From the NCBI GenBank assembly GCA_018714105.1, contig DVNW01000008.1, positions 1 through 64,000 on the forward strand: DNA of 64,000 nt, written 5' to 3'. The notes under the pieces are model-generated. The model was not told where the DNA came from. It worked only from the letters and a program-made list of their open reading frames with translations, and searched no databases. A program made the position numbers and the translations under genes. Shown here in pieces: positions 39,344-63,848 of this stretch (position 1 is its first letter; each line of letters opens with the position of its first letter). This stretch comes from Candidatus Faecicola pullistercoris (GTDB taxonomy: Bacteria > Bacillota > Clostridia > Christensenellales > CAG-917).

Positions 39344-39360
39344 AAGCGATATAAAGTATA

Positions 39361-39387
39361 TAATCCGACGGAAATTCCGTCGGATTA
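39361..39387. terminator. Bidirectional terminator between convergent genes
   Basis: TAATCCGACGGAA-A-TTCCGTCGGATTA followed by TTTTAT. Confidence 0.8.
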
Positions 39388-39412
39388 TTTTATAAAAAGA
39401 CCTAATTTATAA

Positions 39413-49198: not shown

Positions 49199-49599
49199 AT
49201 TTCGGCCGATAAAAAAACAGTGCTTTTCGACACTGAAAGAAAGACAAAATCATTAACTTTCAAGATAGTTAAAAAAACCCGAAAAACAGTAAAACGTGCA
49301 TAGATTTAAAAGCCTTTAAAATAGTTGTATTTACAATTTATTTTTTGAAATCAAGTTAAAATTTTTGTTTTTAAAAAAGTTTAAATTGCAACAAAATTCT
49401 TTATACCGAAAAATAACATTTTAAAAGATCTTTGCATATTATGGTGTAAATTTTGAAAAAAGCAGGGACTGACAACCACTTTCAACCCTTGTTATTTTTT
49501 TCAAAAAAGCGTTATAAACTTAACAAATAAAAGGTTAATTTAACATTTTATGCAAACATACAAAAATTTATTAAAAAATTTTTTAAAAATTATTAAAAA

Positions 49600-49615
49600 G
49601 TGGTTGCAAGTGGTT
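49600..49615 (+). promoter_or_regulatory. Candidate MraZ operator
   Basis: GTGGTT-GCAA-GTGGTT, 10-bp spaced direct repeats overlapping the mraZ -35. Confidence 0.6.
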
Positions 49616-49632
49616 AAAGAATATGGTATCAT
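49604..49632 (+). promoter_or_regulatory. mraZ promoter
   Basis: TTGCAA-N17-TATCAT with extended -10 TGG. Confidence 0.6.
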
Positions 49633-51761: not shown

Positions 51762-51763
51762 TT

Positions 51764-51790
51764 GCCTTTGCCGCGGCAAGGGCTTTTTTT
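51764..51790 (+). terminator. Intrinsic terminator 2 (tandem)
   Basis: GCCTTTGCC/GGCAAGGGC stem followed by TTTTTTT. Confidence 0.7.
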
Positions 51791-51798
51791 GTTTTCCG

Positions 51799-51827
51799 TC
51801 ATAATCGGCGGGGGACGGCCATATATT
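51799..51827 (+). promoter_or_regulatory. Candidate SigE-like (mother-cell) promoter of the PBP gene
   Basis: TCATAAT-N14-CATATATT compared with recalled SigE consensus kmATATT-N13-15-CATACAnT. Confidence 0.4.
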
Positions 51828-51842
51828 TTTGTGAGGTGGAAA

Positions 51843-53738
51843 ATGAAAGTTTCTTTTCCCGCAAAGCGGATAAAATTCGTCGCTATCGTCTGCGTTATGA
51901 TGTTTGCCGTAGTTGCCGGCAAGCTTTTTTACGTGCAGATAATAAACGGCGTGAATTTGCAGGCGAAAGCCCTTTCGCAGTGGAACAGGGACTTGCCCGT
52001 AACCGCTAAACGCGGAGGCATTTACGATACGCAGGGCATATTACTTGCGGGCGCGACTACAAGGTATTCGGTATACGTCAGGCCCAACGCGCTTACCGAC
52101 GCCGCCAAAGCGGCTTCGCTGCTTTCGGCCCGTCTCGGCCTCGATTACGGAAAACTGCTGGAAAAAATAAGCCGGAAAGGCGTATCCGAAATAACGGTGG
52201 CAAAAAAAGTCGAAAAGGAAGTCATGCTGGAAATACAAAAGGAAAATCTTGACGGAATCTATTTTACCAGAGATACGCAAAGGTATTATCCGTACGGCGA
52301 TTTCATGACTCAGCTTCTGGGATTTACCAATATCGACGGAGAAGGACAGAGCGGCCTGGAACGCTATTACGAAAATTATCTGAAAGGGGTAAACGGTTAC
52401 ATACTTACCGAAAGCGACCTGGTAGGAAAGGAGCTTGAAAACGGACAGACCGCCTTCATGCCCGCCATAGACGGGTTCGATCTCAATACCACTCTGGATT
52501 TTCACGTACAGGCAATAGTCGAAAACGTCGTCGACAAAGCAATGGCCGCAACAAACGCCAAACGCATATCGTGCCTTGTCATGAATCCCGAAAACGGAGA
52601 GGTGCTCGCGCTGGCCGAGAGTCCGTCGTTCGATCTTAACAATCTTCCGCGCGACGACGTGGCCAAACTGCTGACTTACTCTAAAAACAATATGGTATCT
52701 TCGGTTTACGAGCCGGGCAGTACTTTCAAAATACTTACTTCGGCAATAGCGCTTGAAGAAAACGCGTTCAGGGAAGACCACAGCTTTTTCTGCCCCGGAT
52801 ACAGAACGGTGGACGGACAGAGAATAAGGTGCTGGCGTTCGGTGGGACACGGCAGTCAGGATTTTGCCGAGGGCGTATGCAACAGCTGTAACTGCGTGTT
52901 CATGGACTGCGCTCTGGCAATAGGCAAGGAGACCTTTTACGATTATCTTGAAGACTTCGGGCTTATGGCAAAGACCGGAGTCGACGTGAGCGGAGAAACG
53001 TCGGGACTGTTTTTACGAGAGGAAGCCGTAAAAAACGTGGACCTTGCCCGTATAGGTTTCGGGCAGGCGGTAGCGGTAACTCCCATAGGGCTGGCGTCGG
53101 CGGTGGCAACGGCCGTTAACGGAGGCAACAAAATCACTCCGCATATTCTTAAAAGCATAACGGATTTTAACGGAAATACCGTATACGAATATAAAATCAG
53201 TACGGAAAAAAGCAAAATATCGGCCGAAACCAGCGAAAAATTGCGCGATTTACTGCAAAACGTGGTTGAAATCGGCAGCGGTAAAGCCGCTTATCAGGCC
53301 GGATACAGCATAGGCGGCAAGACCGGCACCGCGCAGAAATACGTGAACGGCGCAATAGCGCAGGGAAAATACGTTTCCTCGTTCGTGGGTTATACGTTTA
53401 CCGAAGGCGTTAAAGCCATGGTTGTTTTTATAGTTGACGAGCCCGTAGGTCCGTATTACGGCAGCATAGTAGCGGCGCCTTACGTGGGCGAGATTTTCAA
53501 AGGAATCTTCGATTATAAAAACGTCGCTCCCGTCTACACCCAAAAGGACAAAGAGATTATAGGAGAGCCTTTCGCCATGCCCGACCTCAGAGGCCTTAGC
53601 GTGAACGAGGCCAGAAACATGCTTTACTCTCTTGGCCTGTATTACGAAATCGACGGAGAGGGCGACTACGTATCCGCACAGTTGCCCGCCCCCGGGGCGA
53701 CGGTAGACAAGACGGTAAGCGTGCTTATTTCGGTCTGA
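51843..53738 (+). CDS. spoVD: Class B penicillin-binding protein with C-terminal PASTA domain (SpoVD/FtsI)
   Basis: KRGGIYDTQGILLA, YEPGSTFKI (SxxK), GGKTGTAQ (KTG), C-terminal PASTA-like MPDLRGLSVNEARNMLYSLGL; spoVD versus ftsI is inference. Confidence 0.85.
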   Translation: MKVSFPAKRIKFVAIVCVMMFAVVAGKLFYVQIINGVNLQAKALSQWNRDLPVTAKRGGIYDTQGILLAGATTRYSVYVRPNALTDAAKAASLLSARLGLDYGKLLEKISRKGVSEITVAKKVEKEVMLEIQKENLDGIYFTRDTQRYYPYGDFMTQLLGFTNIDGEGQSGLERYYENYLKGVNGYILTESDLVGKELENGQTAFMPAIDGFDLNTTLDFHVQAIVENVVDKAMAATNAKRISCLVMNPENGEVLALAESPSFDLNNLPRDDVAKLLTYSKNNMVSSVYEPGSTFKILTSAIALEENAFREDHSFFCPGYRTVDGQRIRCWRSVGHGSQDFAEGVCNSCNCVFMDCALAIGKETFYDYLEDFGLMAKTGVDVSGETSGLFLREEAVKNVDLARIGFGQAVAVTPIGLASAVATAVNGGNKITPHILKSITDFNGNTVYEYKISTEKSKISAETSEKLRDLLQNVVEIGSGKAAYQAGYSIGGKTGTAQKYVNGAIAQGKYVSSFVGYTFTEGVKAMVVFIVDEPVGPYYGSIVAAPYVGEIFKGIFDYKNVAPVYTQKDKEIIGEPFAMPDLRGLSVNEARNMLYSLGLYYEIDGEGDYVSAQLPAPGATVDKTVSVLISV

Positions 53739-53774
53739 AATAAATGTATAAAAAAGTCTAATTTTACCTTTCCG

Positions 53775-53803
53775 TTGACACTATTATTCTTTTAGAATAA
53801 TAT
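53775..53803 (+). promoter_or_regulatory. murE promoter
   Basis: TTGACA-N17-TAATAT. Confidence 0.65.
53782..53802. promoter_or_regulatory. Perfect 21-bp palindrome overlapping murE promoter (candidate operator)
   Basis: TATTATTCT-TTT-AGAATAATA. Confidence 0.6.
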
Positions 53804-53829
53804 CAAATCATCAAACACGGAGGCGGCTT

Positions 53830-55275
53830 ATGAAAACACTTAAAAGTTTACTCTCGGGCGTATACGAAGGCGAGGTTCCCGATATCGAGATTGCGGACAT
53901 CTGCACGGACAGCAGGCAGGTTAAGAACGGGGACCTTTTCATTTGCCTGTCGGGCGGAAATTTCGACGGGCACGATTACTCTCTTGAAGCGGAGATGCTG
54001 GGCGCGGCGGCAATAGTTTGCGAACACGCCGTGGAAAGCGGACTGTTTCAGGCGATTGTAAGCGATACGCGCAAGGCATACAGTCTGATATGCGGAAATT
54101 TTTTCGACAATCCCGCCCGGGATATGAAGTTCGCGGCCGTCGTTGGCACCAACGGCAAAACAAGTACGGCTTCGGTTTTGCGGTGTATTCTCGAAAGAGC
54201 CGGACACGTTACGGGGCAGATAGGAACCACGGGCGTCAAGATGCCCGATAAAGTTTACGATACCGGTATGACCACGCCCGACCCTTACGAGCTGAACCGC
54301 TATCTCAAAAAAATGAGAAAAGCGGGCGTCGATACCGTAATCTGCGAAGTCACCGCTCATGCGATTTTCTGGAAAAAGACATACGGGATAAAGGCCGATT
54401 ACGCGATATTCACCAACGTAAGCAAGGACCATCTCGACTTTTTCGGGGATATGGAAACCTATGCCGGGGTAAAGCGCGGTTATTTTTCGCCCGATAACGT
54501 AAAAGTCGCCGTGGTAAATTCGGACGACGAAAACGGCAGGGCGATAATTTCCGCCGCGCGCACGGCGGTGTTTTCGTACGGAATAAATCAACCCGCCGAC
54601 GTTTTCGCCATAGACATACGCCATTCGGACAGGGGGTTGGAATTCGTCATAAATCTGTTTGACGACGTGTTCGGCATCGCCGTTCCGCTGTACGGACGTC
54701 ATAACGTATACAACGTGCTTGCGGCGGCGACTTTGGCAAAACTCATGGGCGTGGACGGGGCGGTTATAAAAGAAGCTCTCGAAAACGCGGACGAAATAGA
54801 GGGGCGGTTTAATATTTTTTATTACAATGGGGCAAAAATAATAGTGGATTTCGCTCATACTCCCGACGGTCTTGACAATCTTCTGCAGGCCGCCGCCGAA
54901 ATTACCGACGGGAAAATAGTTACGGTGTTCGGATGCGGCGGCAACCGCGACAGAACAAAGCGCGCCGAAATGGGAACGGTTGCGGGCATGCGCAGCGACG
55001 AAGTCGTTATTACTTCGGACAATCCCAGATACGAACAGCCCATGGACATAATATCCGATATATTGCCGGGCGTTAAGCGGTGCGGAGCGGAATACATAAT
55101 AATTCAGAACAGAAAAGAGGCCATAGCCTACGCCATATCCCGCGCGGGACGGGGCGACACGGTAGTGATAGCCGGCAAAGGCGGCGAAAAATATACCGAA
55201 GTCAAGGGCAAAAAAATAGCTTACAGCGACGAGAACAGCGTGAAGGCCTTTATCGAAGGAGGAAGGATTGACTGA
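53830..55275 (+). CDS. murE: UDP-MurNAc-tripeptide synthetase (meso-DAP type)
   Basis: VVGTNGKTSTASVL, TTPDPYELNRYL, TSDNPRYEQP (DNPR is typical of mDAP-adding MurE). Confidence 0.96.
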   Translation: MKTLKSLLSGVYEGEVPDIEIADICTDSRQVKNGDLFICLSGGNFDGHDYSLEAEMLGAAAIVCEHAVESGLFQAIVSDTRKAYSLICGNFFDNPARDMKFAAVVGTNGKTSTASVLRCILERAGHVTGQIGTTGVKMPDKVYDTGMTTPDPYELNRYLKKMRKAGVDTVICEVTAHAIFWKKTYGIKADYAIFTNVSKDHLDFFGDMETYAGVKRGYFSPDNVKVAVVNSDDENGRAIISAARTAVFSYGINQPADVFAIDIRHSDRGLEFVINLFDDVFGIAVPLYGRHNVYNVLAAATLAKLMGVDGAVIKEALENADEIEGRFNIFYYNGAKIIVDFAHTPDGLDNLLQAAAEITDGKIVTVFGCGGNRDRTKRAEMGTVAGMRSDEVVITSDNPRYEQPMDIISDILPGVKRCGAEYIIIQNRKEAIAYAISRAGRGDTVVIAGKGGEKYTEVKGKKIAYSDENSVKAFIEGGRID

Positions 55276-63734: not shown

Positions 63735-63746
63735 GTCATTAATGAA

Positions 63747-63768
63747 TTATCCACAAAAATGTGGATAA
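63747..63768. repeat. Inverted pair of perfect DnaA-box-like 9-mers
   Basis: TTATCCACA-AAAA-TGTGGATAA followed by TTTTT. Confidence 0.6.
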
Positions 63769-63848
63769 TTTTTAATAAATGTTTTATACGCACAGCGTCC
63801 GACACGGACGGAAATATTTTTCTCTTTCCCGTGCCTAAAATGTCAGTT

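Follow-up and report, generated by a model that had tools for sequence, protein, structure and literature searches.

A conserved promoter with a dedicated upstream box in front of murE, and an overlapping palindrome that relatives lack

The murE gene of this genome is preceded by a conserved sigma-A promoter and a dedicated upstream box, and the perfect palindrome that overlies the promoter is probably incidental rather than a conserved repressor operator; the probability of this reading is put at about 0.7. The sequence lies in a window of 64,000 nucleotides, the whole stretch analysed. To our knowledge, little is known outside model species about how murE, murD, ftsW and murA are controlled apart from mraZ, and no paper on a murE promoter palindrome or on the upstream box was found in the literature.

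The murE promoter and its upstream box

On the plus strand, murE (53830-55275; Pfam Mur_ligase_M, Mur_ligase_C and Mur_ligase) follows a gene for a penicillin-binding protein of the ftsI/spoVD type that carries a PASTA domain (51762-53738; Pfam Transpeptidase, PBP_dimer and PASTA). It is the first gene of a block that continues with mraY, murD, ftsW and murA, all recognised by Pfam, and an open reading frame in the ftsQ position. The 91-bp gap between the two genes contains the murE promoter, which on direct reading consists of a -35 element TTGACA (53775-53780), a spacer of 17 nt (53781-53797) and a -10 element TAATAT (53798-53803), with the murE Shine-Dalgarno sequence GGAGG at 53819-53823. 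A scan of 53600-53900 returned this as the sole promoter-like match, at 10 of 12 positions.

Conservation was assessed in 31 murE loci of the same family, which align without gaps from the upstream box to the -10 and amount to about 15 effective sequences; the relatives compared belong to other genera of that one family, none to the same genus, and their MurE proteins are 44-51% identical. In these promoters the TTG of the -35 is invariant and its fourth base is A in 87% (weighted), while the first T, the A and the last T of the -10 (TAnnAT) are present in 100% and the fifth-position A in 93%. The 17-nt spacing is conserved across the family. A sigma-A promoter is expected to have hexamers 16-18 nt apart that are kept at orthologues, and this one does. 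The site is an internal sigma-A promoter of the dcw cluster, driving its murE part, and the promoter claimed by the sequence-only reading is present as described and strengthened by its conservation in the family. That reading had further proposed that a repressor operator controls the block from murE to the ftsQ position independently of mraZ; the separate promoter is supported, the repressor part is not.

The more promising conserved element is a box, AGTCTAATTTTACC (53755-53768, plus strand; family consensus TGWCTWnTTTTRCS), whose first base lies 20 bp 5' of the -35 and which is close to, but not within, the span 53775-53803 that had drawn attention. Across the 31 aligned promoters its G2, C4, T5, TT and C are invariant, and TTCCGTT often stands immediately 5' of it. 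In each genome the box is effectively unique to murE. In the genome studied here, a longer version of the pattern has its sole full match (0 mismatches) at murE, all others having 3 mismatches, and a weight matrix built without this copy ranks it first, at 25.2 against 18.1 for the next site in the 37% of the genome scored. Elsewhere in the family, 0-mismatch matches all lie at murE, one per genome, except for a second contig copy in G017, and pattern matching added two further members with the box (G009 and G024).

The box also occurs with the same spacing at murE in several genomes of a second family, f32, where matrix scores are 18-27 (L169 and L170 read directly), whereas the opposite strand of all 80 regions, taken as the null, scores no higher than 2.6. 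It was found once at murE in family f16, and some f5 genomes carry the variant TGTCGAAGATTGCGAAG there, whereas none was found at the murE genes examined in families f3, f7, f13, f14, f24 and f28. Matches with 1 mismatch outside f32 and the family studied here (f1) have no murE homologue on the surrounding stretch examined. A murE-confined box that is kept between families whose MurE proteins are only about 45% identical gives a tangible starting point in the search for a cell-wall regulator.

The box probably binds a regulator. RNA polymerase would use TTGACA-N17-TAATAT at murE, and AGTCTAATTTTACC, at its fixed distance from the -35, would aid it; the box is most likely a putative activator binding site or a specialised contact site for the alpha subunit. 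The arrangement, in which a conserved box starts a constant 20 bp 5' of the -35, resembles that of a housekeeping sigma-A/sigma-70 promoter with an upstream activator site or UP element, but the box differs from a plain A/T-rich UP element in its invariant G and C positions and in its specificity for murE. The MraZ box, made of tandem GTGG repeats 5' of mraZ, controls the same gene cluster, but it sits at mraZ and not at murE: tandem AAGTGG repeats resembling it lie just 5' of mraZ at 49598-49620, and no tandem GTGG repeats were found in the murE region. MraZ was set aside as the murE regulator on these grounds.

The palindrome within the murE promoter

The palindrome itself, TATTATTCT-TTT-AGAATAATA, occupies 53782-53802, across the greater part of the spacer and -10; the span 53775-53803 is that of the promoter. 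Direct reading bears out its 21-bp perfect symmetry, with 9-bp arms and a 3-bp centre, as well as the earlier remark that its geometry does not fit Fur/PerR or CIRCE sites. Fur/PerR operators are 7-1-7 repeats, TGATAATnATTATCA or TTATAATnATTATAA, and the CIRCE element bound by HrcA is TTAGCACTC-N9-GAGTGCTAA. Like Fur/PerR-type operators, the palindrome is an AT-rich inverted repeat over a promoter, but it is a 9-3-9 repeat with a different half-site and occurs in a single copy; on inspection it does not have the CIRCE sequence either, and both candidates were rejected. A role in RNA structure was likewise discarded, since the palindrome would not be transcribed if, as assumed, transcription starts about 7 nt after the -10. 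No intrinsic terminator (a G+C-rich stem with a T run) was found in 53600-53900, and Rfam reported only four tRNAs in the window.

The reading of the palindrome as a conserved repressor operator is not supported by sequence comparison. No second copy with 2 or fewer mismatches exists in the genome (1.62 Mb, 98% complete), a result still compatible with a repressor of one target. There are four sites with 3 mismatches; these and the near matches in relatives have no target gene in common, and most lie inside or at the edge of unrelated reading frames. Alignment of the sequence 5' of murE gave a promoter that is kept in relatives and a palindrome that is not: it occurs in none of the other aligned promoters among the 31 family loci, and the spacer bases beneath it carry low information, against the high information of TTG, TAnnAT and the upstream box. 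The two observations that the sequence-only reading had named as refuting an operator, no other occurrences and absence from relatives (here of other genera) that retain the promoter, were both made, and they leave the conserved operator unsupported.

How readily such symmetry arises by chance depends on the comparison. When the 91-bp intergenic region was shuffled, arms of at least 9 bp with a loop of at most 8 appeared in 0.9% of trials (P about 0.009), and shuffling the 55 bp from the -35 to the start codon gave P = 0.00085 for a palindrome of this strength, values that express the local improbability of a site chosen for its striking look. A control set of 74 sigma-A-like promoters 5' of open reading frames, drawn from 604 kb (37% of the genome) and scored alike, contains two with the same score, murE included, where shuffling predicts 0.63; one chance palindrome of this strength somewhere in the genome is therefore unsurprising. 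Four more of the 74 score 8 or 8.5, several with palindromes over the -10, and in a sample that includes relatives 1 of 64 upstream regions attains the murE score. AT-rich promoter spacers, in short, easily yield perfect palindromes that resemble operators. The murE palindrome, confined to this lineage, is most likely a by-product of an AT-rich spacer beside the TAATAT -10.

The second control promoter at the murE score stands in front of a dihydroorotase-like gene (L142, 10387-10444, on contig C20 of the same genome) and has the 9-2-9 palindrome TATTATATTTTAATATAATA overlying its spacer and -10. Two further palindromes were observed in the window: a perfect 14-1-14 repeat, ATAATCCGACGGAAATTCCGTCGGATTAT, at 39360-39388, and an 11-4-11 repeat, AATTATCCACAAAAATGTGGATAATT, at 63745-63770, 3' of ftsZ, which is formed by two inverted DnaA-box-like TTATCCACA sequences.

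Alternative readings of the palindrome and the box

An unlikely alternative, though one to be kept in view, is that the palindrome is a lineage-specific operator, on which a dimeric repressor devoted to this one target would cover spacer and -10 and so block RNA polymerase at murE, sister lineages using other operators at the same place. The local improbability of the palindrome (P = 0.00085) favours this, as do the different perfect palindromes that some relatives have across the murE -10: AATATTTATT-A-AATAAATATT in g2; the 22-bp TACACTTATT-AA-AATAAGTGTA in g8, identical at 22 of 22 positions in three species although spacer and downstream flank vary; and TACACTCAT-TATT-ATGAGTGTA in two species of g4. 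The g8 and g4 palindromes are related by a common half-site, TACACT, and read together as TACACTyATTAwwATrAGTGTA (loci L026, L032, L035, L027 and L050), with no differences among the g8 species or between the two of g4; exact sites of this type lie only at murE, apart from the second contig copy in G017. As operator candidates they surpass the palindrome in the window, which shares neither half-site nor register with any of the three, starting at +7 after the first -35 base where those of g8 and g4 start at +14. Among relatives, perfect palindromes cover the murE -10 in 3 of 14 lineages, compared with 1 of 73 control promoters (Fisher p = 0.012), a value that becomes 0.066 if the two similar palindromes are counted once, the lineage counts being a matter of judgement. 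This modest excess makes lineage-specific operators at the promoter possible. Against such an operator here stand the lack of a second genome copy, the similar palindromes at unrelated promoters of the genome, the many family members without any strong palindrome at murE, which are the majority, and the fact that no candidate repressor gene came to light. A broader scheme, in which a dedicated one-target regulator of cell-wall precursor synthesis would bind TGWCTWnTTTTRCS at murE in at least two uncultured Clostridia families while lineage-specific repressors, each acting at a -10 palindrome of its own, were repeatedly added, is speculative and doubtful. Far less probable is a bidirectional promoter whose shared -10 also fires antisense into ftsI: in E. 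coli, divergent transcription is common at pseudo-symmetrical -10 regions (PMC12825309), and the minus strand does carry TGATATTAT, similar to an extended -10, but no minus-strand sigma-70-type promoter passed the scan of 53600-53900, and 9-bp arms are longer than a shared -10 requires. An antisense promoter was therefore rejected.

For the box, the preferred reading as a putative activator or alpha-subunit site has to be set against the improbable one that it is a variant 0A box recognised by Spo0A or a stand-alone Spo0A_C protein of about 110 aa that has no receiver domain. Spo0A was considered because TGTCGAA, the Spo0A core, is exactly what some box variants in f5 and f32 read, and the TGnC core is shared. 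Spo0A contacts G2, C4 and G5 of the 0A box, and in C. difficile mutation of the contacted bases lowers affinity about 10-fold (PMC3485338); of these, G2 and C4 are invariant in the upstream box, but position 5 is T, never G, in 31 of 31 family copies. The genome's own spo0A promoter, moreover, has normal tandem TTCGACA boxes. Candidate proteins are at hand: almost all members of the family encode Spo0A in full length, a stand-alone Spo0A_C protein or the two together. The solved structures closest to the stand-alone protein are those of the Spo0A DNA-binding domains 1lq1 and 1fc3, and its gene is located 15-18 kb from murE in many genomes. The distribution of the candidates does not follow that of the box: full-length Spo0A occurs in nearly all genomes, and the stand-alone subfamily, found in f1 and some other families, is missing in box-bearing f32 and occurs in f13 and f7, whose murE genes yielded no box on examination. 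With T5, the canonical boxes of spo0A itself and the lack of co-occurrence, neither form is supported as a box binder.

Three genomes of genus g3 in the same family (G002, G010 and G015) have neither a murE match at E<=1e-60 nor a Spo0A_C match; the genus has possibly lost wall synthesis and sporulation, or diverged strongly. In Bacillus, spo0A lies next to spoIVB. In the genome studied here, the stand-alone Spo0A_C protein (109 aa, without receiver domain) is encoded at 9992-10321 of L258 on contig C6, and the sequence 5' of its gene ends like a SpoIVB C-terminus, while full-length spo0A sits on contig C20.
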